Below are positions 7,185 to 41,914 of a stretch of DNA of 64,000 nucleotides, one piece after another (the first letter of the stretch is position 1; the number at the start of each line of letters is the position of its first letter). The position numbers and the translations under genes were made by a program. The notes under the pieces are model-generated. The model did no database searches and had not been told where the DNA came from. It saw nothing but the letters and a program-made list of their open reading frames with translations. The stretch comes from an archaeon (GTDB lineage Archaea; Iainarchaeota; Iainarchaeia; CSSED10-239): assembly GCA_029563035.1 (NCBI GenBank), contig JAKQTP010000123.1, positions 1 to 64,000 of the forward strand, written 5' to 3'.

Positions 7185-7205
7185 GTTAATATAACTCCCT
7201 ACAAC

Positions 7206-15725: not shown

Positions 15726-15794
15726 TAGACAAAATCTCCATATATTCGTATTTTGTTAAAATAATAAGAAACAAATAGAGATTTTAAGTAATTA

Positions 15795-16721
15795 TTATCT
15801 GCGATTTCTTTTTGGTATTTCATTAACTGGAACTTTTTTAATGGGTTTAACACAAAATTCTTTAACTGAATCTTCTAACGGCATTCTTAGAATTTCAGTT
15901 AAAATACCACCTTCTGTAGAATTTATACATTTTATCTTGTTTTGAAAGATAAGATCTAATAAAGTATTTCTATAAAGAAGTAATAATTTAGTTGTTTTTA
16001 TATAATATGTATCAATATCTATAATTGTATCGTGATTGAGTTCTCTTTTAATAAGAACATCCATTCCAACACCCGTAGTATCATAAAGTTTTCTTTCTAG
16101 AAATCCATTACAATACGGTTTATTATCTGTAAATCCAAAATCATATCCAACAAAAATAACAGAACTAGGATTAAATATTTTAGAAAATAAAAACATTGTA
16201 GCACCTACAAAGTAATTATTTTCTAAATCACCAGCACCGCTCGTATATGTGGTTATTTCAGATAGAACTTTTTGTTTTTCAGATCCAGGTTTATCTGTTT
16301 GGTTAAAAAAGAATACATTACCTTTCCATTCATTTAATGCAATAGAACTTACAGTAGTTGGGCAAATAAAATTACAATTAGAGGTATCCACCCCCTTCCA
16401 AAATCTAGAGAAAGAATCACTAGGATCTATTGTGCAAACAAAATCTGGATGAATTCCTTCTTCCATTAATCTGTATAAAACTACATCTGCACATATAATT
16501 AAATAATTTTCAGAATACTGTTTTAGTATATGTATATTTTTTTCTAGAGATGGTCCTGCTGCTACTAAAACGCAAGGTATCTTATTATAAAAGGTATTAT
16601 TAATCAAAAACTTAAGATATCTAGAATTTGGTCTAGTGAAGACACCTTCTTCTAGATTTCTTTTATAGTTTTCTTTCCACTTTTCAACGATAGGATCAAT
16701 TATTTTGGTTTGTTCATTCAT
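15795..16721 (-). CDS. Maf/DUF115 (MptE-like) family protein
   Basis: A 308-residue protein with the family signature PCVLVAAGPSLEKNIHIL at about residues 49-66, DPSDSF, a GYDFGF motif and NSTEGG near the end. These match the 6-hydroxymethylpterin pyrophosphokinase MptE-like / Maf family. Bacterial members transfer nonulosonic sugars to flagellin. Here the gene lies between the tail fibre and an RmlD-like gene, so it may glycosylate a virion protein or a cell surface structure. No nonulosonic acid synthesis genes (NeuB type) are in the window, so the donor would come from elsewhere. Confidence 0.75.
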   Translation of the reverse strand: MNEQTKIIDPIVEKWKENYKRNLEEGVFTRPNSRYLKFLINNTFYNKIPCVLVAAGPSLEKNIHILKQYSENYLIICADVVLYRLMEEGIHPDFVCTIDPSDSFSRFWKGVDTSNCNFICPTTVSSIALNEWKGNVFFFNQTDKPGSEKQKVLSEITTYTSGAGDLENNYFVGATMFLFSKIFNPSSVIFVGYDFGFTDNKPYCNGFLERKLYDTTGVGMDVLIKRELNHDTIIDIDTYYIKTTKLLLLYRNTLLDLIFQNKIKCINSTEGGILTEILRMPLEDSVKEFCVKPIKKVPVNEIPKRNRR

Positions 16722-16725
16722 GTTT

Positions 16726-17604
16726 TCACTTCTTTAAGGTTGATATAAAATCTTCTAATGCTATTTTCCAAGGACGTATCTGAAAACCAAAGGTATTCTC
16801 AAAATTTCTACTATTTAGATAAGAATTTACTAATCTTTTTGCAGATGTTTTATATTCACTACTAGTAATAGGTTCAATGGTCACAAATCTTTGTAGGGTT
16901 CTAGGTAAAACTTCATAAATCATTATTAATCTATAAACTTCTTTAGCAAATTCAAACCAATCTGTCTTGTTTTTATTACTAAAGTTATACACACCATATC
17001 TGGTAGAATTGGATTCTATAATTTTAAAAATACCTTCTACTAAATCTTTTGTATATGTAGGACTTCCTGTTTCGTCATCAACGATTTGAATTTTTGGTGT
17101 TTGTTTACCTATAAGTTTAAATAGAGTAGATACAAAGGTAATACCATATTTTCCATATAACCAAGAGGATCTTATAATAAAGTACTTTTCTAAAGATTTT
17201 TTTATAATGTTTTCACCTTCCAGTTTAGATTTTCCATAAATATTAATAGGATCTGGTATATCAAATTCAGAATATTCCGTATCTTTTTTACCATTAAATA
17301 TTTGAACATCTGAAATATGAATAAGTTTGCTATTATACTGTTTCGCTATTTCACATATATTTTTTATCCCTTCTACATTTACTTTGTAAGCTAAAGAAGG
17401 ATTATTCTCTGCTAAATCTGCATTAGAGATACCAGAACAATTAATAATCCAATCTATTTCTTTATTTCTACAAATATTATGTAAATTGTCTAGTATACCT
17501 ATATCGCTTTCCTTATCATATGGAACATACGCAATAGAATGTGATCTAAGATACAATTCTAGTTCTGTTCCTAGTAATCCTTTATTTCCTATAAGTAAAA
17601 TCAT
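16726..17604 (-). CDS. RmlD-like sugar-nucleotide reductase
   Basis: A 292-residue extended short-chain dehydrogenase resembling dTDP-4-dehydrorhamnose reductase. The NAD(P)-binding glycine motif is GNKGLLG at 6-12, and the catalytic Y123-x-x-x-K127 lies in YGKSK. SSWLYG and DDETGSPTYTKDL are typical of RmlD. No RmlA, RmlB or RmlC partners are recognisable in the window, so the substrate is uncertain and may be another 4-keto sugar nucleotide. The stop abuts the start of the next gene. Confidence 0.85.
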   Translation of the reverse strand: MILLIGNKGLLGTELELYLRSHSIAYVPYDKESDIGILDNLHNICRNKEIDWIINCSGISNADLAENNPSLAYKVNVEGIKNICEIAKQYNSKLIHISDVQIFNGKKDTEYSEFDIPDPINIYGKSKLEGENIIKKSLEKYFIIRSSWLYGKYGITFVSTLFKLIGKQTPKIQIVDDETGSPTYTKDLVEGIFKIIESNSTRYGVYNFSNKNKTDWFEFAKEVYRLIMIYEVLPRTLQRFVTIEPITSSEYKTSAKRLVNSYLNSRNFENTFGFQIRPWKIALEDFISTLKK

Positions 17605-18318
17605 TTATTCACCAGTAATATTAAATTGTTTATTAGAATGTTGCCTATAAAATAAAAGACAAGTATTACATTTTTTTGCATTCCATCCAAAGTTTACTAT
17701 TCTTTTATACAAACTATAATCTTCCGGTATATCAGATTTTATATATCCAGAAATATCTTCGAAGCATTTTCTTCTAAAAAGAGAACCTCCATGAATAAAA
17801 TTTCTATTTTGTAGTAATTTTTTAGATTCTTCATTAAATTCAGGAAACATTCTTTTAAAGTATCCTTTTTGTATTTCTCCACCTTTTTCTTCCTGTGGTA
17901 CATCATAGTATCTTGGTGGAGCAAATTGATCGAATAGTATAAAATCTGTATAAACAATACCTATTTCTTGATTATTATCTAATATTCTAGATGTATCTTC
18001 TAGATAAGTAGTTGATATGTAATCGTCTGCGTCTAAAAAACATAGATAATCGCAAGAAGAATGATTAACAGCAATATTTCTACAAGCAATTACACCCTTT
18101 CTACTTGAGTTGTAAGTAACAATAAGATCTATATTAAGATTGTTACCGTAAATATAGTTTTGCAATTCTATATATTTAGAAAAAGAAGAATCGGTGGAAT
18201 AATCATCTATAATAACTATTTCTTTTGGTAATTTACTTTGATTAAGTATAGAATCTAACGCTTCTTTTATATAATTACTATAATTTCTGTTTATTATTAA
18301 TAAGCTAATATTACTCAT
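17605..18318 (-). CDS. Family 2 glycosyltransferase
   Basis: A 237-residue GT-A enzyme. I take the ATG at 18318 as the start, since SNISLLIINRNYSNYIKEAL begins the fold. A GTG at 18357 would only add a leader that no ribosome binding site supports. Motifs are IVIIDDYSTD at the nucleotide site, LCFLDADDY with the metal-binding Asp, and EDYSLY as the probable catalytic base region. It overlaps the GDPD-like gene upstream by 8 nt. Acceptor and donor are unknown. Confidence 0.88.
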   Translation of the reverse strand: MSNISLLIINRNYSNYIKEALDSILNQSKLPKEIVIIDDYSTDSSFSKYIELQNYIYGNNLNIDLIVTYNSSRKGVIACRNIAVNHSSCDYLCFLDADDYISTTYLEDTSRILDNNQEIGIVYTDFILFDQFAPPRYYDVPQEEKGGEIQKGYFKRMFPEFNEESKKLLQNRNFIHGGSLFRRKCFEDISGYIKSDIPEDYSLYKRIVNFGWNAKKCNTCLLFYRQHSNKQFNITGE

Positions 18319-18751
18319 ATCTGAATTCTTTAATATAATCACTACATATTCCTGCACAAGAATATGAATTAATATTAATATCTTTTGGATATCCCTGTAT
18401 AACTATAATTGAATTAGGTGTTAGCTCTTTATTTGGAAATGTCCAAATGTATTTGTTCGAAGTTAATGTACAAGCATCTGTATTATGAAAAAAACAGGTG
18501 GTTCTCAGTACAAGAAGCATATCTAGAGTTTTAGGTGTTTTTGCATGACACCATAAGCCTTTGGTTAATAAAAACTTTTCGTCAATAGTCAGCCAAGGTC
18601 CATCGTGGCCCAGATAAAACTTACCATTTTCATACCATACGTCTATTTCTACAGTATATCCAGAATCTAGTGCTTTCAAAATATAATCTGGGTGATTTTC
18701 TTTATACTTATCTGGACCTGTAAGATTACCTCTATGAGCAATAAGTATCAT
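18311..18751 (-). CDS. GDPD-like phosphodiesterase, compact form
   Basis: A 146-residue protein with the core of the glycerophosphodiester phosphodiesterase family: H6-R7-G8, E18-N, E35-I-D37 and G48-H49-D50. The usual family length is about 230-300 residues, so the second half of the TIM barrel is reduced. In an island of sugar enzymes it may hydrolyse or transfer a polyol-phosphate linkage. It overlaps the methyltransferase gene upstream by 4 nt. It could be a truncated but functional variant or a degraded copy. Confidence 0.7.
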   Translation of the reverse strand: MILIAHRGNLTGPDKYKENHPDYILKALDSGYTVEIDVWYENGKFYLGHDGPWLTIDEKFLLTKGLWCHAKTPKTLDMLLVLRTTCFFHNTDACTLTSNKYIWTFPNKELTPNSIIVIQGYPKDININSYSCAGICSDYIKEFRYE

Positions 18752-19323
18752 TCTTTTGGCCTCAAAATTAAAAATCCTTGATGTCTATAATCTTTAGTTA
18801 TATTATGAGTAGTTTGAAATAAATCATATATAAATTTATTACTTTTTCTATACTTACTTGTAAGGTTATCTGGCATTTTCAATTCGTATAATCCTTCTTC
18901 AAACAACTGAAGATCATCTATAATAAAAGTATCTTTACAATCTTTTCTATATTTATAAATTAATTCAATTTCTGTTTGTAAGGGTAGCTTAATAGTTTCT
19001 TCTATTTCGTCATCGTACGATCCTAGTTGAAAATCAGCCCCAGGAAAGTGCGCATCTAACCAAAACAATATCTTATCTTCTTTAGATATAGTAGGCAATA
19101 TTTTTTGTAGTCCTTCTAAAGAAGTCATATTTAATAAAGTTAATTTAGTTGAAATATACCTAGTTTTACAATACTCATATAATTCTTTATTAATTTCTAT
19201 TGAATAAAAACTTTTAAAAGGAAACTGTAAAGCATGTTTTAATCCCGTACCTTTACCAGTTCCAGTTTCAATAAAAATATTGCATTTATATTTATCTAAA
19301 TTATGAAGGTATAATTCTCCCAT
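18748..19323 (-). CDS. Class I SAM-dependent methyltransferase-like protein
   Basis: A 191-residue protein with ETGTGKGTGLKHA as the SAM-binding loop at about residues 19-31, FYSIEINKELYEY giving the acidic residue that binds the SAM ribose, and LFWLDAHFPGAD further on. It overlaps the cupin gene by one base and the GDPD gene by four. The target may be a sugar hydroxyl or amine. Members of this type are common in bacterial polysaccharide loci. Confidence 0.7.
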   Translation of the reverse strand: MGELYLHNLDKYKCNIFIETGTGKGTGLKHALQFPFKSFYSIEINKELYEYCKTRYISTKLTLLNMTSLEGLQKILPTISKEDKILFWLDAHFPGADFQLGSYDDEIEETIKLPLQTEIELIYKYRKDCKDTFIIDDLQLFEEGLYELKMPDNLTSKYRKSNKFIYDLFQTTHNITKDYRHQGFLILRPKE

Positions 19324-19643
19324 TATTCTGTATACTTATCTCCTATTAAAGATGGAACCTTTACTACTACAACAGCGGCATCTGTAAGTGCTTTAAAATG
19401 TGCTTTTTCGCCCGGTTCTATGATTACAATATCGTCTACCATAAAAGCTTTTCCATTCATTTCTATAGCACCTTCTGTTACTACATTAATTTCAGTAGCT
19501 ACTCGATGAATATGTGGTGTTTCTGTATCACCAGCTTTATATCGTTGAATTGCTACTTCAAAATCTTCGGTTTTCCAAACAGTAGGAGAAAAGTTTCCAA
19601 TAAACCAACCTCGAATCATTTCTTGAATTTTACTAGTTTTCAT
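19323..19643 (-). CDS. Single-domain cupin
   Basis: A 106-residue cupin with the first metal motif seen as TPHIHRVATEINVVTEG (two His and one Glu) and a later PGEKAHF. Such stand-alone cupins may be sugar isomerases/epimerases or small regulators of sugar metabolism. It overlaps the nucleotidyltransferase gene by 11 nt, and the two may supply and modify the same nucleotide sugar. Confidence 0.8.
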   Translation of the reverse strand: MKTSKIQEMIRGWFIGNFSPTVWKTEDFEVAIQRYKAGDTETPHIHRVATEINVVTEGAIEMNGKAFMVDDIVIIEPGEKAHFKALTDAAVVVVKVPSLIGDKYTE

Positions 19644-20418
19644 ACAATTTCTTAAACTCCTCTAAATCTTCTGGTGTACCTAATCCATGCATTGCACACG
19701 TAGGAATAGGAAATGCAAGTATTTTTTGATTTTTTGGTACAATTAATTCATTATACACAGGACAAACATAAAATTCATTATTTACTCTTAAGTTTTTGTT
19801 AATCATTTCGTCAGCTGCCCAAACAAAGTCTGATCCGTGTTTAAACCAATAAATACCTACAGTAGCATAAGTAGAAATAGGTTCTTTTTCTCTTACTCTA
19901 GTAACGAATCCTTTATTATCTAATTCTGCATAAGACCATTTAGGATGTGTTCCATGAAAAACGGGGATACATCCATCTGCTTTTGTATCTGCTATTGCTT
20001 GCATAAATAAATATACAGTCCAATCTATAAATTGATCACTATTAGCAATCAGTAAGGATTCATTTGTATTAATAATATCCCTTGCTTTCAATACAGTACA
20101 AGCAGCACCTTCAGTAATATAATTTATTTGTATAATATTTGTTTTATCTGCTATATCTCTACCGCATACTGCTGTAATGGCTTCTTTAATTCTTAGATCA
20201 AACTGAAATTTCTTGCAATGATCTTCTTGAACTATAAAAGTAAAACTAGGCTGGTGAAAATCGTATCCTTTAGTAGTCCATATTGTGGTAAAATCCAAGT
20301 TTTTAATAACCCATTCGATCATGGGTTTATTTTTAATAGGAATGAAGGGTTTTGGATCTTTATATCCTGCATCTATAAATCGTTGCCCACGTCCCGCCAT
20401 AGGTATAACTATATGCAT
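19633..20418 (-). CDS. Sugar-phosphate nucleotidyltransferase
   Basis: A 261-residue enzyme expected to activate a sugar-1-phosphate with an NTP. The signature MHIVIPMAGRGQRF and PKPFIPIKNKPMIEW form the nucleotide site, and ANSDQFIDW provides the metal-binding Asp. The start at 20418 is fixed by a very strong AAGGAGGAG site. A longer open frame to 20541 has no support and would overlap the upstream methyltransferase. It is close to the short nucleotidyltransferases found in capsule loci. Whether it uses CTP, GTP or TTP cannot be told. Confidence 0.88.
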   Translation of the reverse strand: MHIVIPMAGRGQRFIDAGYKDPKPFIPIKNKPMIEWVIKNLDFTTIWTTKGYDFHQPSFTFIVQEDHCKKFQFDLRIKEAITAVCGRDIADKTNIIQINYITEGAACTVLKARDIINTNESLLIANSDQFIDWTVYLFMQAIADTKADGCIPVFHGTHPKWSYAELDNKGFVTRVREKEPISTYATVGIYWFKHGSDFVWAADEMINKNLRVNNEFYVCPVYNELIVPKNQKILAFPIPTCAMHGLGTPEDLEEFKKLYEN

Positions 20419-20419
20419 T

Positions 20420-21061
20420 CTACTCCTCCTTAGTACAAAACCATAATTTTCTCTGACCAGATTCCCAAGTACCTGTATTTCTAATAATCCAATCATATTT
20501 ATGCGGGCCAGAGTTGCAAGAAGAATCTTCGAGTCTTTCAAATTTAAACTTATGTTCTATTAGAATAGCCTCTATCATACCGACAGAAATTCTACAACCT
20601 ACGTCATGCAGTGATTGATCATAATCTTCTTTTACATCCTTCCAGTATATGATTTTAGAAGGATCGTAACTATCCACTACTTCTGTTTCTAGAATCATAT
20701 ATTTACAAAACTTACAAGAAGTGTGTAAAAGATAAATAGGATCTTTTAAATGGTATAACAACCCCATATTTATAATAATGTCTACTGGTTCTATTTCAAA
20801 TTTTTCGATGTCTAAATCTTTTTGTAGTGCAGTAATATTTTGATAAGTAGATTGTATATACTCAAGATTATCTTTTCTACCTTCTATACATGTTACAGCT
20901 GAACCTAAGGTAGAAAAATGATATCCAATATCACCAAATCCTGCACCTAATTCTACTAATGTTTTACCTTGGAAAAATTCTTTAGTAAAATATTTCTCAA
21001 TAGTAGCTATTCTTTTAGAACGCCATTCTGTATAATGGTCGTCAAATCTGTTTCTGTCCAT
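20420..21061 (-). CDS. SAM-dependent methyltransferase
   Basis: A 213-residue class I methyltransferase. LVELGAGFGDIGYHF is the SAM-binding motif, VTCIEGRKDNLEYI binds the ribose, and IINMGLLYHLKDP is motif IV/post-IV. I prefer the ATG at 21061 (MDRNRFDDHY). An in-frame ATG at 21091 has no ribosome binding site. It overlaps the end of the next methyltransferase gene by 20 nt. It is similar in type to sugar O-methyltransferases of surface polysaccharide loci. Confidence 0.82.
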   Translation of the reverse strand: MDRNRFDDHYTEWRSKRIATIEKYFTKEFFQGKTLVELGAGFGDIGYHFSTLGSAVTCIEGRKDNLEYIQSTYQNITALQKDLDIEKFEIEPVDIIINMGLLYHLKDPIYLLHTSCKFCKYMILETEVVDSYDPSKIIYWKDVKEDYDQSLHDVGCRISVGMIEAILIEHKFKFERLEDSSCNSGPHKYDWIIRNTGTWESGQRKLWFCTKEE

Positions 21062-21755
21062 AAATCCATATCCAACAAGGATGATGATCATCTACTGTGT
21101 TACTTAATTCTGTAGTAACATCTTTAAAACCTATATCTAAAAAATCTAGAATAACTTCTTGTCTTGTATCCACTCTACAATCTAGTCTCCCATTAGTAGT
21201 AGTAGCTTCATAAAAATTTTCTGTATAACCAAAGGTAGGTGTTCCATTCATAGATGGGCCAAAAGCAAGTTGAATTGCTATTCTTCCACCAGGTTTTAAA
21301 CTTTCTAGCATATTTTCTAGTATTTTTCTTCTAATAGAATAGCAAGGAATATGTTGTAAGCAAATGACAGAATAACAAAAATCATATTTATCTTCTAAAG
21401 GAACTTGTGTCCCATCTGTTACTTTTAAAATTCCATTATATGAAGATCCTATATATTGTTTTGCATTATCCAGATTCTTTTGTGAAATATCAACGCCATC
21501 TACCCGCTTAAATAAATTAAAAATTCTTCTAATCTGTCTTCCTGGTCCACATCCATATTCGTAGCAGATATGCTCTTTAGAAGGTATATAATATTTAAAT
21601 AGCCATTGTTCATATGGAAATTTTTCTTGATTTGGAAAATTTCCTACGATATGATCTTCTAAGCATTTTCCATCTGTATAATAACTTGCTCTAGCATTAG
21701 TTTCATACCAGTTTTTTTGCATTTGTGTATACTTAAATTCTTCAGATGTTTGCAT
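21042..21755 (-). CDS. SAM-dependent methyltransferase
   Basis: A 237-residue class I methyltransferase with CYEYGCGPGRQIRRI, VDGVDISQKNLDNA and FCYSVICLQHIPCY as the three classical motifs, followed by LKPGGRIAIQL. The ATG at 21755 has a GGAAGG site, while the TTG at 21773 does not. It overlaps the HAD phosphatase gene by 14 nt. It is one of four methyltransferases in this island, so the final glycan is probably rich in O- or N-methyl groups. Confidence 0.85.
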   Translation of the reverse strand: MQTSEEFKYTQMQKNWYETNARASYYTDGKCLEDHIVGNFPNQEKFPYEQWLFKYYIPSKEHICYEYGCGPGRQIRRIFNLFKRVDGVDISQKNLDNAKQYIGSSYNGILKVTDGTQVPLEDKYDFCYSVICLQHIPCYSIRRKILENMLESLKPGGRIAIQLAFGPSMNGTPTFGYTENFYEATTTNGRLDCRVDTRQEVILDFLDIGFKDVTTELSNTVDDHHPCWIWIYGQKQI

Positions 21756-22368
21756 TCTTAACCTTCCGTTCAATGTTTTCTATTGTAACATACTTTGGAT
21801 TCTTAACTTCTAAAACATGCGCACCAGATTTAATAGCCGCAGTTATTCCTTTTTCAGAATCTTCTATTATCAAGCATTCTTGCGTATTTAATTTTATTTT
21901 TTCTATAGCCAGACAATAACAATAAGGATCTGGTTTAGGTTTTATACCAAAATCTTCATTCCCCAGAAAAAACTCCATAAATTCCAACTGACCTGTTTGC
22001 CTTAAAGCTAATTCTATGGTGTTTCTAATAGAGTTAGAAACACAAATTAATTTATAGTTTTTACTTCTTAGATATGTATGTAATTCTATTTTTTGTGTAT
22101 CTAAGGATAAACAAGATTTAATTGCATTTATGGTATTATCTTGTTTTAATTTCCATACTTTTTCCTTATCTTTTGGATCTAGAATTCCCCTATTAACAAG
22201 CATTTGTAGTTTAACATTTGAAGGAATACCATTATAATATCTCCAAAATTCATATTCCGAAATAGTATACCCACAAATTTCTAGTAATGCAGAATCCAAT
22301 GCGTGTCTATGTACTTGTACTAGATCACATAAGACTCCATCTAAATCAAATATTATACATTTAATCAT
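21742..22368 (-). CDS. HAD-superfamily phosphatase, beta-phosphoglucomutase-like
   Basis: A 208-residue HAD protein. The nucleophile motif is FDLDGVL (D8, D10), motif II is ICVSNS, and the KPKPDPYCY and IIEDSEKG motifs III and IV follow. The cap domain inserted after motif I makes it similar to beta-phosphoglucomutase and sugar-phosphatase subfamilies. In this setting it may dephosphorylate a sugar bisphosphate or isomerise a sugar phosphate before the nucleotidyltransferase. Overlap with the upstream gene is 4 nt. Confidence 0.88.
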   Translation of the reverse strand: MIKCIIFDLDGVLCDLVQVHRHALDSALLEICGYTISEYEFWRYYNGIPSNVKLQMLVNRGILDPKDKEKVWKLKQDNTINAIKSCLSLDTQKIELHTYLRSKNYKLICVSNSIRNTIELALRQTGQLEFMEFFLGNEDFGIKPKPDPYCYCLAIEKIKLNTQECLIIEDSEKGITAAIKSGAHVLEVKNPKYVTIENIERKVKNANI

Positions 22369-23024
22369 TTAGTTTGGTATTTAATACCATCAGAAAAACC
22401 ATATGCTGTTTTAGACAAAACCAATACTTGATCTTTAAAAGAACCGTGTTTACAAAATTCATCACCTAAACATTGTTCTGTAGTATATTTATTAGTTATT
22501 TGCGTATTTGAAAATACTTTAGTTTTATATGCAAAATTTCCTTCTACAATAAAAAATTGCGGCATAAAATCTGAAATTCCATCAAATTGATACCTTCCAC
22601 CGCAAATGACCGGTGGGTTAGAAGTTGAGCTATGAAAATCTTGTCCTATAGCTTGTGATACAGCTAATACTTTTTTATTATCTAACATTTGTCTGTAAAT
22701 TCTATCTAATCCTTTAATATCGCTAATCAATGTATCTCCAGTTATAGCGACTATATAAGGAGCACTAAAATAAGTACTATATAATTTAGAAAAAGCTAAA
22801 TTATAATTTCTCGTTACTGCTACAGCAGGTAATTCATGAATAGGAACTGCCCCAGCTAAGTTAGGCAATACTTCATAGATATCGGCACCTTCTATCTTCC
22901 GATCAGATTCTGATTGAATTACTATTATTTTAGATCCGAAGAATTGTTTTTTAATAGTATTAATATTAAACTGAACAGTATTAACTTCATTATACATAGT
23001 TATACAAAAAACTACATTTGTCAT
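22365..23024 (-). CDS. Glycosyltransferase-like protein, GT-A type, uncertain
   Basis: A 219-residue protein that opens like a GT-A enzyme (VVFCITMYNEVNTVQFNI) and continues with KIIVIQSESD, YIVAITGDTL and GNFAYKT. The usual double or triple Asp site is reduced to GDT, so it may be a divergent nucleotide-diphospho-sugar transferase or a relative without activity. It is tightly packed between epimerase and phosphatase genes in the island. Confidence 0.6.
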   Translation of the reverse strand: MTNVVFCITMYNEVNTVQFNINTIKKQFFGSKIIVIQSESDRKIEGADIYEVLPNLAGAVPIHELPAVAVTRNYNLAFSKLYSTYFSAPYIVAITGDTLISDIKGLDRIYRQMLDNKKVLAVSQAIGQDFHSSTSNPPVICGGRYQFDGISDFMPQFFIVEGNFAYKTKVFSNTQITNKYTTEQCLGDEFCKHGSFKDQVLVLSKTAYGFSDGIKYQTK

Positions 23025-23033
23025 TACAATACC

Positions 23034-24098
23034 TTATAGATATAATTTAGTAAGAAGTTCTACATTATTTGTTACCCATCGAATAATTTGCTGATAACCT
23101 TCTTCTACACCAATTTTAGGTTCCCAACCAATTGCTTCTTTTATTTTTCTGATATCAGAAATATAAATAACATGATCAGCTTTCCTTGGTTCTTCTATAA
23201 TAGAAATCTTCATTTTTCTGTTAAATTCTCTTTCTACTAAAGAAGTTGCTTCAATAAGTGATAGACTAATATCTTTTCCACCACCAATATTAAAAACCTG
23301 TCCTTTAACTTTATCTATACTATCAATTTCCATTTCAACTAACTTACAAATATCGTCAATGAAAAGAGCATCTCTTACTTGTTTTCCTTTCCATCCAATA
23401 TACACTAATGGTAGATTAAACATAGCTGCAATAGCCCACCAGGCAACCCAACCTTGTGCACTTTTACCCCATTGTCGCGGTCCTGCCAAACAAGAAAATC
23501 TATTTACAACTGTTTTAACACCAAAGGCATCGAAATATTCTTGACAGGCAAGATCAGACATTACTTTACTCATTCCATAAATAGAATGTTGTCCACCATC
23601 GATGCTGAATTCATTCGAAAAACCATATCTAGAATCCCATCCTTTAGTAGAACTTTCTTGTAGGATCCATCTGTATCGTGTATCAGATTCATACAATTCA
23701 AAAGAATTGATTTTATCTCCACTATATACTTTATTTGTTGACCAAAAGATGACAGCAGGTTTATTCTCTTGTTTTCTAGCAAATTCTAGAACATTAAATA
23801 ATCCAAGGGTATTATTAGAAAAATCATAATATGGGTTATTATATCCATCAATAGCAGAAGGTTGTGCACTACATTCACAAATAGCGTCAAAAGTTCCAAG
23901 ATTATCAAAATCTTCTTTACACCGGATATCACCGTGAACAAACTTTACGCCTTTGTTCTTGAAGTCATCTAAATTATATTCTGAACCTCTTCTTGCTAAA
24001 TTATCAAAAGCAGTCACTTTATATCCTTTTTCCGCAAAGTAAAGAGATAAGTTAGCACCCACGAATCCACAGCCACCTAAAATTAGAATTTTTTTCAT
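23034..24098 (-). CDS. NAD-dependent sugar epimerase, CDP-paratose 2-epimerase-like
   Basis: A 354-residue extended SDR. The NAD loop is GGCGFVG at 8-14, with ECSAQPSAI, FWSTNKVYSG and the catalytic Y-x-x-x-K in SIYGMSK. The stretch VVNRFSCLAGPRQWGKSAQG and GWKGKQVRDALFIDD strongly recall CDP-paratose/tyvelose 2-epimerases. A true CDP-tyvelose pathway also needs CDP-glucose 4,6-dehydratase and others not seen here, so the substrate is left open. It could be a related UDP- or GDP-sugar epimerase. Confidence 0.85.
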   Translation of the reverse strand: MKKILILGGCGFVGANLSLYFAEKGYKVTAFDNLARRGSEYNLDDFKNKGVKFVHGDIRCKEDFDNLGTFDAICECSAQPSAIDGYNNPYYDFSNNTLGLFNVLEFARKQENKPAVIFWSTNKVYSGDKINSFELYESDTRYRWILQESSTKGWDSRYGFSNEFSIDGGQHSIYGMSKVMSDLACQEYFDAFGVKTVVNRFSCLAGPRQWGKSAQGWVAWWAIAAMFNLPLVYIGWKGKQVRDALFIDDICKLVEMEIDSIDKVKGQVFNIGGGKDISLSLIEATSLVEREFNRKMKISIIEEPRKADHVIYISDIRKIKEAIGWEPKIGVEEGYQQIIRWVTNNVELLTKLYL

Positions 24099-24101
24099 TT
24101 A

Positions 24102-26614: not shown

Positions 26615-26615
26615 T

Positions 26616-27515: not shown

Positions 27516-27517
27516 AA

Positions 27518-28087: not shown

Positions 28088-28096
28088 TATATTCTC

Positions 28097-29775: not shown

Positions 29776-29777
29776 TA

Positions 29778-30581: not shown

Positions 30582-30585
30582 ATAT

Positions 30586-32343: not shown

Positions 32344-35246
32344 TATCTAGATTCCCCAGCTAACCAAGCTTCTTGAAAAACTTCAGCATACTTATCTAGC
32401 ATCTCTTGATGTGTTGTCATTCCTTTTTTAATTATTTGGGTATTAGTAGAATAATATCTTCTTAATTCTGGATTAAGTATCATAGAAACCATTTCAATCA
32501 TAAGTGCATTAGAATTTGATAATGGATAATACTTTCCATTTACTTTATTGAATATCTGTTCTTGTACACCCATTGTTGGAACAGTTATTACAGGAAGATC
32601 GAAATGCATAGCTTCTAATATAACCCTAGGGAAACTTTCTAGTTTACTTGTTAAAATAAAGCAATCTGCTGCTTCATATAATTCTTGAACACAAGAAGTT
32701 TCTTGTAACATAATTATATTATCTCTTTTTTCTTTTGGAAACTTTGAAATGAGATCATGCAGCATAGAACTATACCCAGAAGGTCTATCTCCTGCAATAA
32801 TAATTTTATATTTATTAGAATAGATATTTGGTAGTTCACTTATTGCTAACAGTAGATCTAGTTGATTTTTTCTATCGCAGACTGTACCAACAGATAAAAA
32901 TACTACTTGATCGTCTGTTATATTATATTTTTCTCTAGTTTTTTGTCTATTATTCGATTCGGAAAATCTAGAGGTATTAATACCATTATGTATTACAGTA
33001 AAATTATTTTTTGCTTCTAGCTGAAGACATCTGTGTTTAGTAGAATTTGCAACAAAAACAACTTTGTAAGGATAGTAAAAACAATTTAAGGCTCGTTGTT
33101 GAATATCTTCACCAAAATGTGTATAATATGTAAAGATTGGTTCGCTTTCTCTAACATTCCAAATAGAAGGTATATTTAATTGTTTTGCTACATCTATACC
33201 ATAAAACATCTGCAGCGTATTTGCATAAATAATTTCTGGATTTATTTGTTTAATTAAACTCTTAAGATTCTCAAGTCCTTCTAAATACTCTTTTATAAAA
33301 AATCCTCTTGATAGCGGAGAAGGTTTAATAACTACTTCTATACCTTCTCGTTCGTATTCTTTTCTAAGAGGTCCATCTTGAAAGCAATATATTACAGGAT
33401 CCAGTATTTGTTTTCTTTTTAAACCAGAAATCATTTCAAAGTTACTATAGCTAGATCCTTCTAAATTAAGATTATATGCAAATCCTAATGTTTTAATTGC
33501 ATAAGGTATTTTAGAAGTATTTACAATAGAAGATTCTATGCTAAATGTTGTATCTTTAAACGATAGATTTGCATTATAATGTTTATCTTTATAATCTTTA
33601 TATAAAAGACGATATGTAAATTCATTTCGTATATCATCTCGACTATACTTTTCTACTCTTCGTGTAAAATTTTCATGATGAAATAAGATAGAATTAGCAC
33701 TATAGACGATTCTATATCCAAGTTTTTCTATTCTATGGCAGTAATCTGGATCATTATACCCTACACTAAAGTTTTTTTCATCAAATCCACATACTTGCTT
33801 AAATAAATCCGTTTTAGTTAGCATACAAGCAGCAGTTACCGCTGAACATTCTCTAGATAATCTTTCAAATGCCATATACGTCCCATGATTTGATTTCATC
33901 ATTTTAAATGCTGGTTCTACTCTACCATTATTATACCCATGAACTAATCCAGCATGTTGAATTAAACCATTAGGAAAAATTAATCTTGCACCCACTGCTC
34001 CTACATCTTGTACATTAAGATAACCTACCATTTGATTAAGCCATTGTGGTGCAAGAATTTCTGTATCATTGTTTAAAAATAATACATAAGGTGTTTTAAC
34101 GTGTTTAATAGCTTCATTATTTATTTTAGAAAAATTAAATTTTTCTTCACCGTTCGAAATTTTAATAACTCTGCAAGGCAAGTTATCTAAATAATCTAAA
34201 CTTTTTGGGTCATTGCTATCATTATCTATAACTAATATCTCATAATTAGAATATTGAGTTTTTTCGATAATGGATTTAATGCATCTATCCAAAATGGTAT
34301 GTTGATTAAAAGTTGGTATTACAATAGTAACAGCAGGTCCAGAAGAAGGAAAATGCAACTCATAGTAACCGCAGTTCCATTCTACCGCCCATTTTGGTCT
34401 AGAAACACTTGCTTGAATATTTCTTCTTTGTAATGCTTCTATTATAGCATTTTGTCCTGCAATAAAACTTTCTGGTTTTGCTTGCGCAGTTTTTGCAGTC
34501 GATCCATCTACTGCTTTCCAATGATATAGAATTTTTGGAATATGATAAATATTTTTTGTTACTTCTGATAATCTTAATAGTAAATCGAAATCCTGTGATC
34601 CATCAAATTCTTTTCTAAAACCTGTAAATTGTCTAAAAAAAGAAGTTCTTATTACTAGAAGATGCCCTATATACATGTAACTAAGAAGTAATTCTGGGTT
34701 CCAATCGGGTTTAAATTGCGGTTCATATCTAACACCTGAAACAGATATTTTATCATCATCAGAATATATAATATCTGCAGTATTATGTGTGTTTAATTCT
34801 ATTATATTTTCTGCTAAAGCGTCTGGTGATAAGATATCATCATTATCAACAAAAGCAATAAATTCACCGCTAGCTAGCGTAATTGCGGTATTAGTACATT
34901 CTGAAATTCCTGAATTCTTTGAAGTCTTAGTTATTTTTATTTTTACATTAAATTGTAATTCATTAAGGAATTCTATTAAATCTGTATTTGTGCTGCAATC
35001 GTCACAAATACATAGTTCCCAATTATCATACACCTGTTCATAAATACTTTGTAATGTCTGTTTAAAAATAGAAACATTTACATTGTATACAGGCATTATA
35101 ATACTAATTAAAGGTTGATATGATAAAGATTTAAGAGTGTGTATTAACTGCTGTTCTTTTCTTGAATTCCATTTATTAACTTGGAGCCAAGAGGTATACT
35201 TGTCTTCTTGTGCAAGAAGATGGAGTTGCAATGGTCTAGATTTCAT
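32343..35246 (-). CDS. Three-domain glycosyltransferase (GT2-GT2-GT4)
   Basis: A 967-residue polypeptide with three catalytic modules. Residues about 45-275: GT-A with LISIIMPVYNVN, CICDDCSTN, AFVDNDDILS and GSQDFDLLLRL. Residues about 305-560: a second GT-A with VTIVIPTFNQH, LVIDNDSND, LFLNNDTEIL and GYNDPDYCHRIE. Residues about 580-960: GT-B with NIPSIWNVRES, SVGTVCDRKNQ, EAADCFILTSKLESFPRVIL and a final helix. Such a chain may assemble several linkages in series. It overlaps the neighbouring GT gene by 4 nt and abuts the amidotransferase gene. Confidence 0.9.
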   Translation of the reverse strand: MKSRPLQLHLLAQEDKYTSWLQVNKWNSRKEQQLIHTLKSLSYQPLISIIMPVYNVNVSIFKQTLQSIYEQVYDNWELCICDDCSTNTDLIEFLNELQFNVKIKITKTSKNSGISECTNTAITLASGEFIAFVDNDDILSPDALAENIIELNTHNTADIIYSDDDKISVSGVRYEPQFKPDWNPELLLSYMYIGHLLVIRTSFFRQFTGFRKEFDGSQDFDLLLRLSEVTKNIYHIPKILYHWKAVDGSTAKTAQAKPESFIAGQNAIIEALQRRNIQASVSRPKWAVEWNCGYYELHFPSSGPAVTIVIPTFNQHTILDRCIKSIIEKTQYSNYEILVIDNDSNDPKSLDYLDNLPCRVIKISNGEEKFNFSKINNEAIKHVKTPYVLFLNNDTEILAPQWLNQMVGYLNVQDVGAVGARLIFPNGLIQHAGLVHGYNNGRVEPAFKMMKSNHGTYMAFERLSRECSAVTAACMLTKTDLFKQVCGFDEKNFSVGYNDPDYCHRIEKLGYRIVYSANSILFHHENFTRRVEKYSRDDIRNEFTYRLLYKDYKDKHYNANLSFKDTTFSIESSIVNTSKIPYAIKTLGFAYNLNLEGSSYSNFEMISGLKRKQILDPVIYCFQDGPLRKEYEREGIEVVIKPSPLSRGFFIKEYLEGLENLKSLIKQINPEIIYANTLQMFYGIDVAKQLNIPSIWNVRESEPIFTYYTHFGEDIQQRALNCFYYPYKVVFVANSTKHRCLQLEAKNNFTVIHNGINTSRFSESNNRQKTREKYNITDDQVVFLSVGTVCDRKNQLDLLLAISELPNIYSNKYKIIIAGDRPSGYSSMLHDLISKFPKEKRDNIIMLQETSCVQELYEAADCFILTSKLESFPRVILEAMHFDLPVITVPTMGVQEQIFNKVNGKYYPLSNSNALMIEMVSMILNPELRRYYSTNTQIIKKGMTTHQEMLDKYAEVFQEAWLAGESR

Positions 35247-36484
35247 TTCATCTCTTCTAATAGCGTTAGTTTAAGAGGCTTTAATATAGAATCCCAATTA
35301 TATTGAGAATATAATAGTTCATGTTCTGCGGAAATATCTATATGTAATAGATTAGAAAAAGCTTTTATATCTTCCAATTCTTCACGAATAAAATCACCAC
35401 CTACAATTTCATAAATAAGTCTATCATCTAAATATTTAGATTCTTCTAAAATAGGTGAATTATTAGTAATAATTACTGGCATTCCGTATGACATCACTTC
35501 AAAAATTCTTGCTCGATGAGAATATCTATTTTCTAGCCAATGTTGAGATAGACAGATACAAGCATCGTATTTTTCAAATAATTTTCTAGGATCTAATGAA
35601 TTATATTCACCTATTATTTTCATATTAGAAGATGTATTTATATAATCCAAGTTTACCGATTTTTGTAGAAATCTAGTAAATCTTGGATGCTGTATTCCAT
35701 AAAAGTCTATTTTTATAGATGAATGATTATAAAGATTTGTAATTAAATTCTCGAAATCATACCATGGATAAAATGGTCCATACCATAATAATTTTAATTT
35801 ATCAGAATGCTCTCTAGTTACAGGTTTATGCCAAGTTATACCATAAGGAATCTTAAGTAAAGGTGAATTCTTATAATTATCTACATTAAGTTTATTTAAT
35901 AAGAATAATTGGCCTTCATAATATCTTTTTTGTCTATCATTTGCATATAATATAAGATCTGCTCTTTTTAAAAGTTCAGAATATTGACGTAGTAATGTCA
36001 ACCATTGATATTTTTTTAGTTTTTCATCTGTATGATAGCTAACTGCTGCTGGAAATTCAGCTAATAGTGGTATATAACCATCTAAAATAACTCGAATGTG
36101 TGGTCTTAATTTTACAATATTCTTAAACCCTATACCACCTGTACACTGTAAAATAACAATATCAAATTTAGAAAGAATATTTTTTAATTCTTTGGAATAC
36201 TCCCAAGAACACTTTTTATAGTTATAAGATTCTATAGAATAAGAAAGTTTACTATAATCAATATTATTTTTACCCGGATGATTTAAATCAGGTATTAATA
36301 AAGTTACATCAAAATCAGTTGATAGATATTCTGCAAACTTTTGTGCACGAATACCAGTAGCTGCTGCGTTGCAGCATTTAGATTTCGTTGAATAAAGAAT
36401 TCCATTAATATAAATGGAATCTGGGCAGTTTGATGCAAGGGGTAAATTTACAGCATCCGGTGATAGGATACATAGCTTTTTCAT
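35243..36484 (-). CDS. GT-B glycosyltransferase, paralogue of the 38691 gene
   Basis: A 413-residue GT-B family 4-like enzyme. It opens LCILSPDAVNLPLAS. Later motifs are RADLILYANDRQKRYYEG, PLLKIPYGITWHK, LKLLWYGPFYPWYDFENL and FEVMSYGMPVIITNNSPIL. The gene at 38691-39929 carries the same landmarks in the same order (LVANERQTFFYEG, PLLKVPYGI, LKLLWYGTVYPW, ALEMLANQLPIIIND), so the two are duplicates that now flank a structural gene. The C-terminal half holds the nucleotide-sugar site. Confidence 0.88.
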   Translation of the reverse strand: MKKLCILSPDAVNLPLASNCPDSIYINGILYSTKSKCCNAAATGIRAQKFAEYLSTDFDVTLLIPDLNHPGKNNIDYSKLSYSIESYNYKKCSWEYSKELKNILSKFDIVILQCTGGIGFKNIVKLRPHIRVILDGYIPLLAEFPAAVSYHTDEKLKKYQWLTLLRQYSELLKRADLILYANDRQKRYYEGQLFLLNKLNVDNYKNSPLLKIPYGITWHKPVTREHSDKLKLLWYGPFYPWYDFENLITNLYNHSSIKIDFYGIQHPRFTRFLQKSVNLDYINTSSNMKIIGEYNSLDPRKLFEKYDACICLSQHWLENRYSHRARIFEVMSYGMPVIITNNSPILEESKYLDDRLIYEIVGGDFIREELEDIKAFSNLLHIDISAEHELLYSQYNWDSILKPLKLTLLEEMK

Positions 36485-36518
36485 TTCATTTTTTATAATA
36501 TAACTTAGTTAATTTTTT

Positions 36519-38681
36519 CTAAACTAAAAATTCAGAAGTTGAATCATTACAATATACAACTCTATAAATTAATTCTGGTGGTATTACCTCTGAAAATACA
36601 CTTAATAATCTATCCAACTGAAAATCTGGTATATCCTCATTATCTACAGCATATATTATTATAGTAATATAAGTAGCTTTTCTTTGTGCAAGATACTCAC
36701 TAGATACCTTAGTATTAGGTAGATTTATAACTTCTGTTGGATGATCAAATGAAGTAAAGGTATATAAAGGAGGTGTTCTCGTAGATGTTGATAGGTTATT
36801 ATTGCTGATATCTACAAATAAATTTGCATGCAATTGGCTAACAAAGGTTAAATTACTATAGTCATATACAGAATTAGATCCTTTATACTTGTATACATTA
36901 TAAGTTTCAATTCCATTTACTTCTGGCCACATGATAACATTAAAACCTTGATATCCTGTACTGCTTTCTAATCCCGTACTTGTTGGCCACCAGCGATTAT
37001 CTATACGTAGTGTTGTTGCGGAACTTTCTTGGTCACCATTTACTGATGTAACACCATAATAATAGTTATCTCTTTCTAATCCCCATTCTCCTGTAGAACT
37101 ATTAATTACAAAACTCCTACTAGTTTTTTTAGGATCATATAATGAATTATTATAGTAAATTTCATAATGATCAAATTCATCAATATTTTCTTGAAAAGCA
37201 TCTAATATGATATTTAAAGCCTCTCGATATCCACCGTATTCATATGCTAAATAGATAGCTATAGCAATATTTCTGTAAGGTTCTGCTTCTTCTGAAATAT
37301 CCCTATAATATTCTATTAAGGAAGATATTCTTTCTTCGAAAGCCTCAAATCTACTTTCTGTTAAGGATAGATCATCTTTTTGTAAATTAATTTCAGTCCA
37401 TATATCTGTATATTCCTTACCTAATGCTGCAAAGAAAGAATATAAATTTACTATATTTATTGTTTGTTTTGTAGATTTTCTAGAAAACCCTATATTTTTA
37501 TAATCTCTGGCATGCAATTGTAAATGAGAAGTTCCTTTTGATAAAGAAACACCGAATTCAAAATTACCATAAGAATCTGTAATTACAAACTGATTATGAT
37601 TACCATTCAAATAAACATCTACTTTAGCATTACTAATACCTAAATACCCTTTAAAAAGGTATTTACCTTTCAAAGCAGGTATATCAAATTTATTCTTATT
37701 ATAATAATTATGATCTATTAAAACATTTTTAAGATACTTCCAATAAGGTTGCTGCAGATAATCAATAGGAGAATTATCCACCGATCTGAGATAGGGAGAT
37801 TTATCTTGTAAGGCTTGTGTAATTATTGGATAAGTAGCATAATTGCTTAGTAGTCTATTTGGATTAACCGCAGCAACATAATATAGATAATTACAATTTC
37901 TTTTTGCTGTGATATCTGTATATGATGTATTTTTTGTGTATCCAAGTAATGAAGGTGTAGTAGAATAATCTACTACATAAATAGCTAAATTTCTAAATCT
38001 TGCAGAATAATCCTGACTTTGATCAAATACAAAGCTACTTCTATTAGAATCTGTAGCAAAAAATACTCCTTCAATAGATACCTGACCATACCAAATACTT
38101 TTCTTTAATATATCTATTACATATACATAGCTTTTATAAGTAAAAGCATCGGATACCAAAGCACCTGTAGCTGCATCTAAATATGCATCTGTAGGTACAC
38201 TCATTTCTGTTCTATATACCGCATAATTACTTAATTGACTATTTTTAGAATCTGTAGTATCTAATGCATCCCAGGATAAGCTTGTATCATAATTGTCATA
38301 TCCTACAACTAAATTTTCTGGTGTAGATAATAACGTATATACAACTAAATCTGCTGTTCTGGCGGAATGTTCTTGATTAGCTGCAATCGCTTCAACAGAA
38401 TAAAAGATTTTTCTACCAAAATCTTCTTCTGGTACTGTATACGAAAAATAAGTTTTATTTGTGATTAAGTCATTATATGTGCTTATTGTAGAACTTTGAT
38501 TAGCACTTTCGTCTACTTTAATATCGCAGCTAATAGAATGCCCACTAGTATCTGTAGATTTAAATAATTCATAACCACCAATATTTGGATCAGTATGAAT
38601 ATCAAATTCAAAAATAATAGTTTGTACATTATCTTCTACTGTAATAGAAGAAACCGCAAAGTTAGTTATGCTCGCTATCAC
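36519..38681 (-). CDS. Tail/baseplate protein with FnIII-like modules, gpI-like position
   Basis: A 720-residue structural protein. Residues 1-115 and 118-290 look like fibronectin-III-like beta domains (STPENLVVGYDNYDTSLSWD). Residues of about 335-405 resemble a carboxypeptidase-regulatory-like Ig domain (ISNAKVDVYLNGNHNQFVI). A helical stretch at 410-500 follows (TDIWTEINLQKDDLSLTE), then more beta structure. It follows the J-like gene in the operon with only one glycosyltransferase gene between, where P2-like phages carry gene I, and the fibre gene comes further on. The function is assigned from position and composition only. Confidence 0.6.
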   Translation of the reverse strand: MIASITNFAVSSITVEDNVQTIIFEFDIHTDPNIGGYELFKSTDTSGHSISCDIKVDESANQSSTISTYNDLITNKTYFSYTVPEEDFGRKIFYSVEAIAANQEHSARTADLVVYTLLSTPENLVVGYDNYDTSLSWDALDTTDSKNSQLSNYAVYRTEMSVPTDAYLDAATGALVSDAFTYKSYVYVIDILKKSIWYGQVSIEGVFFATDSNRSSFVFDQSQDYSARFRNLAIYVVDYSTTPSLLGYTKNTSYTDITAKRNCNYLYYVAAVNPNRLLSNYATYPIITQALQDKSPYLRSVDNSPIDYLQQPYWKYLKNVLIDHNYYNKNKFDIPALKGKYLFKGYLGISNAKVDVYLNGNHNQFVITDSYGNFEFGVSLSKGTSHLQLHARDYKNIGFSRKSTKQTINIVNLYSFFAALGKEYTDIWTEINLQKDDLSLTESRFEAFEERISSLIEYYRDISEEAEPYRNIAIAIYLAYEYGGYREALNIILDAFQENIDEFDHYEIYYNNSLYDPKKTSRSFVINSSTGEWGLERDNYYYGVTSVNGDQESSATTLRIDNRWWPTSTGLESSTGYQGFNVIMWPEVNGIETYNVYKYKGSNSVYDYSNLTFVSQLHANLFVDISNNNLSTSTRTPPLYTFTSFDHPTEVINLPNTKVSSEYLAQRKATYITIIIYAVDNEDIPDFQLDRLLSVFSEVIPPELIYRVVYCNDSTSEFLV

Positions 38682-38690
38682 TTATATGTC

Positions 38691-39929
38691 CTAAAAATTT
38701 TCAATATAATCTATTACCGGTAAAAGTGTGTTATTCCAATTAAAAATATTTGTAAAGGTTTCATAAGAATCTTTAGATATCTTACTAGATTTTTTGTTTT
38801 CGCATATTGTTATCAAATTTTCTTTTATACTGGGTATATTTACATTTCTAATATTATCTTTTAAAAAGTCTAATTCTGTATTTAAATTATCTAGATCATT
38901 AATAATAATAGGGAGTTGATTTGCAAGCATTTCTAATGCTCTAGTTTTATGTACATAAGATTCATATATCCAATTTCTGTTAAGACAAATACCAAAATCA
39001 TATTCTTCATGTGCAGTACCGAGATCAAAATCTATATCATCTATTATTTGTATGTTTGAAATATTGGGTACATTATCAAAAAATGATTTAAAGTAGGTAT
39101 TAAAAACTTTGGGCTGCCTAGTGTGCTTAATATTGATAAAATCTATACTAATTTTATCAAAATCTGCTAATTCCTTAATAAGAACTTCAGGACATTCCCA
39201 AGGATACACTGTTCCATACCATAATAATTTTAAGTTATTGCTTGATATATTAAAATTTGTTTCTGTAAATTCCTTTTTTTCTATACCATATGGAACTTTC
39301 AGTAAAGGTGAAAATTGAAAGGTACTATAATTTAGTTTTCCTATTCCATAAAAAAACCCTTCATAAAAAAATGTTTGTCTTTCATTAGCTACCAGAAGAC
39401 AATTAGATCTAGTAATTAGATCATTATATAACATCATTGCTTTTTGCCAAAAAACTTTTCTAGAAATCATAGAATGTGTTAATAGCTTTCCTGATAATTC
39501 CTGTGGTAGTATGTTATATCCATCTACGATTAAATTTACTGTACTTGGTAATACAGAACAATTTTGTATTCCAGATCCAGAATTACATTGTACAATAACA
39601 AAATTAGCTTTCTTAAGTTTTCTGTCTAATTCTTGTGTCCAGTTCCAAGAAGAAACTCGATAATTATAAGATCCTATTTCAAATTTTATATTACTAAAAT
39701 CTACAATTTCTTTTAATTTATCAGGTAATGCTATATCTGGAACTAACAAAAGTACTTCATATTTTTCTGCAAGAACTGAAGCAAATTTCCAAGATCTAAT
39801 TCCTGCGGGTTCTGCGTAAGTATATTTACTTTTAAATTCTTTTCTTTCTTGTACAGATAAAGAATCTAAATATTCTTTTTTAATAGGTAATGGTACAACG
39901 TCTGATGCGATTATAACAATCGTTTTCAT
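38691..39929 (-). CDS. GT-B glycosyltransferase, paralogue of the 35243 gene
   Basis: A 412-residue family 4-like enzyme. Residues share the landmark series of the 35243 gene: TIVIIASDVVPLPI, then IVQCNSGSGIQN, LIVDGYNILP, LVANERQTFFYEG, LKLLWYGTVYPW and ALEMLANQLPIIIND. It lies alone between the J-like baseplate gene and the gpI-like gene, 38 nt from the former, so it was probably created or moved by a duplication that split the tail operon. Confidence 0.87.
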   Translation of the reverse strand: MKTIVIIASDVVPLPIKKEYLDSLSVQERKEFKSKYTYAEPAGIRSWKFASVLAEKYEVLLLVPDIALPDKLKEIVDFSNIKFEIGSYNYRVSSWNWTQELDRKLKKANFVIVQCNSGSGIQNCSVLPSTVNLIVDGYNILPQELSGKLLTHSMISRKVFWQKAMMLYNDLITRSNCLLVANERQTFFYEGFFYGIGKLNYSTFQFSPLLKVPYGIEKKEFTETNFNISSNNLKLLWYGTVYPWECPEVLIKELADFDKISIDFINIKHTRQPKVFNTYFKSFFDNVPNISNIQIIDDIDFDLGTAHEEYDFGICLNRNWIYESYVHKTRALEMLANQLPIIINDLDNLNTELDFLKDNIRNVNIPSIKENLITICENKKSSKISKDSYETFTNIFNWNNTLLPVIDYIENF

Positions 39930-39967
39930 TTAATTTTTCCTTCATTTATATTTAAATTAATTTATAG

Positions 39968-41431: not shown

Positions 41432-41433
41432 TT

Positions 41434-41868: not shown

Positions 41869-41914
41869 AGTAGACCTTTTGTTATAAAAATAAGAATGCT
41901 ATAAGAATTTTAAG

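Follow-up and report, generated by a model that had tools for sequence, protein, structure and literature searches.

The analysed stretch of DNA, here called the window, comprises 64,000 nucleotides (contig JAKQTP010000123.1 of GenBank assembly GCA_029563035.1, positions 1 to 64,000), and judging from its match to a virus record it is part of a tailed jumbo phage of about 236 kb. This record (G001, 236,368 bp) contains 93% of the sampled words of the window and is 99.5% identical to it across 51 kb; its two ends join within repeats of the fibre gene, which fits a circular assembly. In the tail region of the phage, 25 open reading frames (ORFs) were found at 15795-39929, nearly gapless and all on the minus strand, between a baseplate-J-like gene upstream (39968..41431, minus strand; PF04865 22.6 bits, cut-off 21.1) and a fibre or spike gene downstream (12495..15725, minus strand; phrog_4636 tail spike, 2e-38). 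The glycan-biosynthesis island that an earlier reading made without database searches (the sequence-only reading) had placed between these two genes is therefore present. It is a real, selected and exchangeable glycan locus within the tail operon of jumbo phages of one lineage, and glycosylation of the virion appears to be its likeliest, though unproven, purpose.

The neighbouring genes suggest a contractile-tailed phage, although matches to a sheath initiator, a tube initiator and a minor tail protein near the island were all below the cut-off, with the J-like gene above its own. From the gene at 38691-39929 to the fibre gene the 25 junctions range from -56 to +69 nt, the nucleotidyltransferase gene being taken as 19633-20415 for this count; 13 of them are overlaps, the larger of which depend on mechanical start codons. 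The single strand had been recognized correctly before, but overlaps of 1-4 nt, which had been described throughout, occur at only 7 of the 25 junctions. The island was not distinguished by its G+C content. At 24000-42000 promoter-like sites were not enriched (101, compared with 122.8 in shuffled sequences) and terminator-like sites numbered 6 compared with 4.7, and we claim neither a promoter nor a terminator within the island.

Enzymes encoded in the island

Genes were assigned by family searches, searches against solved structures and one predicted fold, with a best family E-value of 1e-133 among the island proteins; all genes described here are on the minus strand. Ten of the predicted proteins are of glycosyltransferase type. 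Six exceeded the Pfam cut-off, namely a three-domain protein of GT2-GT2-GT4 arrangement at 32343..35246 (PF00535 144.3 bits in two stretches, PF00534 90.7 bits), GT2 glycosyltransferases at 29778..30641, 28097..28816 and 17605..18357 (PF00535 46.5, 86.8 and 81.2 bits, respectively), a GT2-like protein at 27518..28087 (PF00535 31.4 bits) and a GT4-type protein at 26616..27515 (PF00534 52.9 bits). A probable glycosyltransferase at 24102..25073 matched PF00534 below the cut-off (E 1.7e-5) and has an orthologue with 72% identity in a second jumbo phage, G006. The last three of the ten are the genes at 38691, 35243 and 15795, described with the frame below. About twelve glycosyltransferases had been proposed earlier, of which ten are supported. 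The product of 22365..23024, a cargo protein of no assigned family, matched neither Pfam nor PHROG and has a G006 orthologue with 53% identity. A clear DxD-type motif was not found in this protein, nor in 28097..28816 with the pattern used.

Enzymes for activated sugars accompany the transferases. UDP-glucuronate decarboxylase (UXS; 25658..26632, 4e-122 to the solved UXS 2b69), an RmlD-type reductase (16726..17604, TIGR01214 230.2 bits against an equivalog cut-off of 224.05), a HAD phosphatase (21742..22368, PF00702 82.2 bits) and a sugar nucleotidyltransferase (19633..20541, PF00483 39 bits, phrog_3980 3.9e-64) were all confirmed. The true start of the latter is probably near 20415, as its relatives align from residue 40-42. 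The gene at 23034..24098, taken before for a CDP-paratose-2-epimerase-like gene, scored as CDP-tyvelose 2-epimerase-like (8.4e-63 to 9rl0, 3.6e-56 to 1orr). A complete rhamnose pathway was considered and rejected: RmlD is present, but the nucleotidyltransferase and UXS scored far below the RmlA and RmlB cut-offs. RmlC was not matched in Pfam scans of the window island; one was found in the relative G005.

The four methyltransferases of the sequence-only reading are of unequal standing, since the gene at 21042..21773 is solid (PF08241 51.1 bits), 20420..21091 is a probable methyltransferase just below the cut-off (PF13489 26.4 against 27 bits), 18748..19323 is a possible one with a weak match (PF02390, E 0.0079) and 25074..25658, also a possible one, has no Pfam match and a G006 orthologue with 53% identity. 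Methylation of the glycan is thus backed by one solid and one borderline enzyme, and the two further calls are weak. The cupin-like protein (19323..19643, PF07883 21 against 27.2 bits) and the small GDPD-like protein (18311..18751) are weak calls as well; the latter has no Pfam match and belongs to phrog_34507, of no assigned function, yet carries HRG and ExD motifs. The radical SAM protein (28816..29775, PF04055 60.1 bits, CxxxCxxC) and the AsnB-like glutamine-dependent synthetase (30586..32343, Cys2, SGGxDS) are solid. The AsnB-like protein scored as a glutamine-hydrolysing asparagine synthase (TIGR01536 444.9 against 267.1 bits); the amidated glycan suggested on its account remains speculative.

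Known family motifs were found in the enzymes checked; the patterns were composed after viewing the translations and show the presence of the residues, not an independent test, and the C-terminal pattern for the radical SAM protein fell inside its first motif and adds nothing. The HAD, nucleotidyltransferase and GDPD-like genes form a trio in the window (18311-22368) that recurs in the loci of relatives. Among the best 80 of at least 583 viral loci around relatives of the nucleotidyltransferase, G006 included, HAD was found in 79 and the GDPD-like gene in 69, compared with 46 and 13 of 61 genome loci, shares that are biased by selection.

Frame genes and exchangeable cargo

The enzyme array is framed by two conserved genes, which keep close to a tail-like gene. 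The gene next to the J-like gene, here called GT412 (38691..39929), has no Pfam match and is confidently modelled with a GT-B glycosyltransferase fold, a fold which alone shows no function. It has a paralogue in the island at 35243..36484 (34% identical, no Pfam match), which gave the second match in G001. Between the two lies the tail-like gene tail720 (36519..38681), the proposed acceptor, which matched neither Pfam nor PHROG and whose tail role is suggested by its position. Its predicted model is of low confidence (predicted local distance difference test, pLDDT, 68.9), and the FN3-like matches of its N-terminal domains are only a hint. Two tail genes had been reported within the island; this is the one that was recovered, and a second was not found. 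In a tail720 relative of 1184 aa (P0004) the last third contains a long additional segment in which SxDGxxW-like motifs recur, presumably reminiscent of Asp-box propellers.

At the other end, next to the fibre gene, lies DUF115 (15795..16721, PF01973 116.5 against 34.6 bits), a Maf/MptE-like gene and proposed protein glycosyltransferase. A homologue annotated as Maf was detected (E 7e-19), and the DUF115 profile matched PDB entry 5mu5, which we take to be a Maf (E 2.5e-8). DUF115 has 308 aa compared with the 666 aa of 5mu5, and the match is confined to residues 254-368 of the 5mu5 chain. The protein carries the central MptE-like domain of Maf without the further N- and C-terminal domains of the full-length protein. 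Most of 23 aligned DUF115 proteins carry a short C-terminal tail rich in lysine and arginine. Neither GT412 nor DUF115 matched a PHROG family.

Related phages were collected by profile searches and their gene maps compared, leaving out G007 (identical to G006 over the compared 40 kb) and the contig L053 (4.5 kb, encoding a relative of GT412). The J-like gene was followed directly by GT412 in six of six records (window/G001, G002, G004, G005, G006 and G008; G003, in which no J-like gene was found, was not counted), the GT412 protein of G005 being marginally closer to the window paralogue at 35243. In all seven distinct records with tail720, the gene directly before it was one of the two frame genes, either GT412 (window/G001, G002, G004) or DUF115 (G003, G005, G006, G008), and in G006 and G008 DUF115 and tail720 overlap by 4 nt. 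The stretch between GT412 and DUF115 varies in size, with 23 ORFs in the window and 20, 13 and 7 in G006, G005 and G008, respectively, and without any on the opposite strand. In the window tail720 is one of the 23, whereas in G005, G006 and G008 it sits beyond DUF115; G002, whose contig stops 76 bp past tail720, was left out of this count. The 20 relatives' cargo ORFs scanned against Pfam (of 40 in G005, G006 and G008) were mostly glycosyltransferases, epimerases and methyltransferases, with RmlC, PglD-like and nucleotidyltransferase-like proteins in addition. In G004, GT412, tail720 and the fibre gene are consecutive without any cargo, and DUF115 was not found in the 41.9 kb of this record.

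Of these phages, G006 (217.7 kb) has 16 cargo genes in common with the window, at 45-72% identity and in the same order except for one swapped pair of neighbours (25074/24102); UXS is not shared. A genome-wide comparison of G001 with G006 gave 70 reciprocal best hits, with a median identity of 59.3% for island proteins (18 pairs), 42.6% for tail proteins (13) and 40.7% for others (39; Mann-Whitney p 5.5e-7). The 18 island pairs include DUF115 (46%) and the three-domain glycosyltransferase (31%). G008 has a similarly distant backbone (40 pairs, median 38.8%), and its island overlaps only in DUF115 and a UXS-like pair of 20% identity. The simplest reading of these identities is that the cassette moved between lineages as a block, either directly or by way of a donor common to both. 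Enzymes may also evolve more slowly than tail proteins, which may contribute to the contrast. Two LAGLIDADG elements were noticed in the G006 cassette, an intein with a homing domain in the radical SAM gene (L057:9626-11707) and an endonuclease joined to the cupin-like gene (L047:5551-6639). Such mobile elements possibly help its exchange.

The near-identical pair of window and G001 differs chiefly in one cargo tract and at the fibre end. Over 51,472 aligned bp 256 differing sites were counted, of which 203 lie in the 3,374 bp of 17278..20651, a probable recent replacement (no strand assigned). A further 39 fall within 12529-13500, where the fibre gene ends in repeats; 13501-17277 is free of differences, and the other 43,349 bp account for 14. 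So sharp a tract points to homologous replacement from a relative. In the island genes 163 differences are silent and 46 replacing, with no stop codons and a ratio of replacing to silent differences per site (pN/pS) of 0.071; this signal of constraint comes mostly from the seven genes within the tract, and per-gene counts tally overlapping bases twice. The fibre gene has 13 silent and 26 replacing differences. Its 3' end (12532-12924) holds a 138-bp tandem repeat in 2.8 copies, where the strains differ most outside the cassette, in part possibly as an effect of assembling tandem repeats. The proposal that the set looks capable of making a dedicated glycan is supported, since motifs are present, strain differences are mostly silent and most of the cargo is common to another jumbo phage as a block.

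Wider searches returned little. With the island as query, a near-DNA search of 50,697 phage records returned nothing, nor did tblastn with a 1743-aa tail protein, GT412 or DUF115 against the same set, which may omit records very close to the window. No relatives came up when the J-like protein and tail720 were used as single-protein queries against viral contigs; alignment-based scans did recover some. The tail720 scan of genome contigs returned zero relatives, hence neither a provirus nor a host was identified. Elsewhere in the window, homing-endonuclease-like genes lie within the tail region at 55517-57343 and 62391-63815 (phrog_3339; weak HNH match), and about 1 kb at 6226-7224, spanning most of ORF 6207-7184 (no Pfam match), is absent from G001.

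Membrane machinery and the purpose of the locus

By a simple hydropathy rule made for this analysis, at most one membrane-like segment was seen in any ORF of the island and in any cargo protein of four phages, and none of the G001 ORFs of at least 60 aa has four. As a control, loci of at least 15 kb around nucleotidyltransferase relatives were examined by the same rule, and of 37 loci from bacteria or archaea 30 encode a protein with at least five segments, compared with none of 49 viral ones. Two families of initiating transferases and one of flippases (PF02397, PF00953, PF01943) were matched in none of five phage records, of which G002 and G005 are plainly incomplete. With no membrane partners found, the set would either act alone on a cytoplasmic acceptor, for instance a tail protein not yet assembled, or borrow the membrane steps of the host. 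An initiating transferase, flippase or polymerase with many membrane segments, as expected of a Wzx/Wzy-type O-antigen or capsule locus, was not found by these searches, though the host could supply what such a locus needs.

The lack of membrane machinery, together with two glycosyltransferase-type genes fixed beside a tail gene, favours a virion tail protein as the acceptor without proving it. We put the probability that this is a tail glycosylation island, whose sugar is built on a tail protein in the cytoplasm, at about one half. Late in infection the genes would be expressed, and their enzymes would supply the host cytoplasm with activated sugars of unusual kinds. The first sugar would be attached by DUF115 or GT412 to a tail protein, most likely tail720 and otherwise the fibre; ahead of tail assembly, the remaining transferases would lengthen the glycan and the methyltransferases would cap it. 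As with Maf-modified flagellin, neither a lipid carrier nor a flippase would be needed. A change of cargo would alter the sugar coat of the tail and with it recognition, stability or the binding partners of the virion. More tentatively, and at somewhat less than even odds, we propose that the island is self-contained and serotype-like, with a conserved transferase pair marking the tail protein and swapped cassettes setting the methylated oligosaccharide in this jumbo-phage lineage.

Several observations weigh against tail glycosylation. The acceptor was chosen by neighbourhood alone and the model of tail720 is poor; DUF115 matches only the central part of Maf, and NeuB was not found. In the window DUF115 adjoins the fibre gene and not tail720, and G004 keeps tail720 and GT412 without cargo or DUF115, which makes the cargo dispensable. 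Eight of the 39 other G001-G006 pairs, from the backbone, reach 48-68% identity, so that single cargo genes are unexceptional and the contiguous block is what stands out. Moreover, clusters of jumbo cyanophages with related nucleotidyltransferases have been interpreted as modifiers of the host surface (PMC7824862).

That published view of clusters sharing the nucleotidyltransferase family (PMC7824862) speaks for the alternative that O-antigen, capsule or S-layer sugars of the host are built or altered through its own initiating enzymes and flippases, by which rival phages would be excluded or progeny freed from receptors. The three-domain protein at 32343-35246 matches phage PHROGs for GtrB-like O-antigen conversion, and the variability of the cargo would suit surface antigens. 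We consider this reading unlikely, if by no means negligible: searches for an initiating transferase, a flippase or a protein with several membrane segments gave nothing, though a host could provide them, the array lies within the tail operon with frame genes that stay beside the tail gene, and the late expression supposed here would leave scant time to recoat the host. A division of labour, with GT412 and DUF115 acting on tail proteins and the cargo on the host surface while merely carried in the tail operon, would account for the retention of GT412 in the cargo-less G004 and for the position of the cargo relative to tail720 in the window, which is unlike that in G005, G006 and G008. It is improbable given that the cargo lies between both frame genes in four of the four records that have both and the J-like gene.

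The transferases might instead glycosylate modified bases of the phage genome, which we regard as very improbable; genes of this kind would here sit in a tail operon, and the thymidylate-synthase/hydroxymethylase family was found in none of the five records while the control was positive in 9 of 14. A search for TET/JBP had a silent control and carries no weight either way. Metabolite clusters, too, contain genes of the radical SAM, AsnB-like and cupin-like kinds, and a second cyanophage cluster has been interpreted in that way (PMC7824862), so that the set could serve a sugar-containing small molecule, or consist of recent imports decaying without use. Little credence is given to either, as ten glycosyltransferase-type proteins predominate, reading frames are open with mostly silent changes, and 16 cargo genes are near-collinear in a distant phage. 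Scattered passengers with broken active sites were not what was seen: motifs are present and most of the cargo is shared as a block.

If tail glycosylation holds true, these phages would vary their tail by exchanged sugar chemistry besides fibre sequence, in convergence with flagellin glycosylation islands. Glycosylated virion proteins have so far been reported in few phages and with few genes. The finding would bear on host range and on annotation, where such genes are usually filed as morons or host-takeover functions, as PHROGs does for glycosyltransferases. It also yields a testable rule, that a glycosyltransferase island which adjoins tail genes and lacks membrane partners should signal glycosylated virions.

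Comparison with known glycosylation systems

The sequence-only reading knew of no set of this breadth inside a tail operon. Broad sets of glycan genes in phages as such do exist, as polysaccharide clusters of up to 15 genes are described for jumbo cyanophages (PMC7824862). These resemble the island in uniting epimerases, a nucleotidyltransferase, HAD and several glycosyltransferases, and the HAD-nucleotidyltransferase pair is common to both, although fused in the cyanophages and encoded by separate genes in the window. Their setting differs, since the loci of B23, S-CAM9 and S-SKS1 lie near tRNA, psbA or other host-like or accessory genes and not among tail genes. So does the use ascribed to them, which is modification of the host surface, and DUF115 and GT412 are unmatched in the 50,697 phage records. 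Searches of the open PMC literature turned up no report of a glycan island set within the tail operon of a phage.

Phage-encoded glycosyltransferases with virion glycoproteins offer a second comparison. The Xanthomonas jumbo phage XacN1 has two glycosyltransferases (PMC5852040), and glycosylated virions of mycobacteriophages have been reported (Freeman et al. 2023, cited in PMC12619734); the parts of these sources at hand describe no large exchangeable island. The Moraphages, aquatic jumbo phages with four groups of putative glycosyltransferases among their shared genes (PMC12619734), differ from the present case in that no tail island is described for them in the available text. Outside the phages, the combination of activated-sugar synthesis and glycosyltransferases in a large virus is shared with chloroviruses and mimiviruses (PMC5408694, PMC9614988), and in chloroviruses the capsid protein is glycosylated in the cytoplasm by the virus's own enzymes (PMC5408694). 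Those viruses infect eukaryotes and have unrelated virions, and here glycosylation of the virion is a prediction.

The closest likeness is to flagellin glycosylation islands. Maf-dependent glycosylation of flagellin is cytoplasmic and precedes export (PMC4065374). In Geobacillus, horizontally acquired and strain-variable islands of 13.4-30.4 kb encoding 11-23 proteins lie among flagellar genes; they are absent from 18 of 36 strains, and maf was present in 16 and methyltransferases in 15 of 18 strains (PMC5109656). Like these and those of Aeromonas (PMC7874193), the phage island is variable and exchanged, lies amid filament-type genes and combines glycosyltransferases with a Maf-type protein and methyltransferases. 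It differs in that its neighbours are tail genes and not flagellin, which was not found among the scanned proteins save for a below-cut-off Flagellin_IN match in 57508-59823. NeuB (PF03102) of nonulosonic acid synthesis, common but not universal in flagellin islands, was matched in none of the five phage records, with a control of 9 of 14. By analogy, we hold that the island would work like a flagellin glycosylation island, though it falls outside that class.

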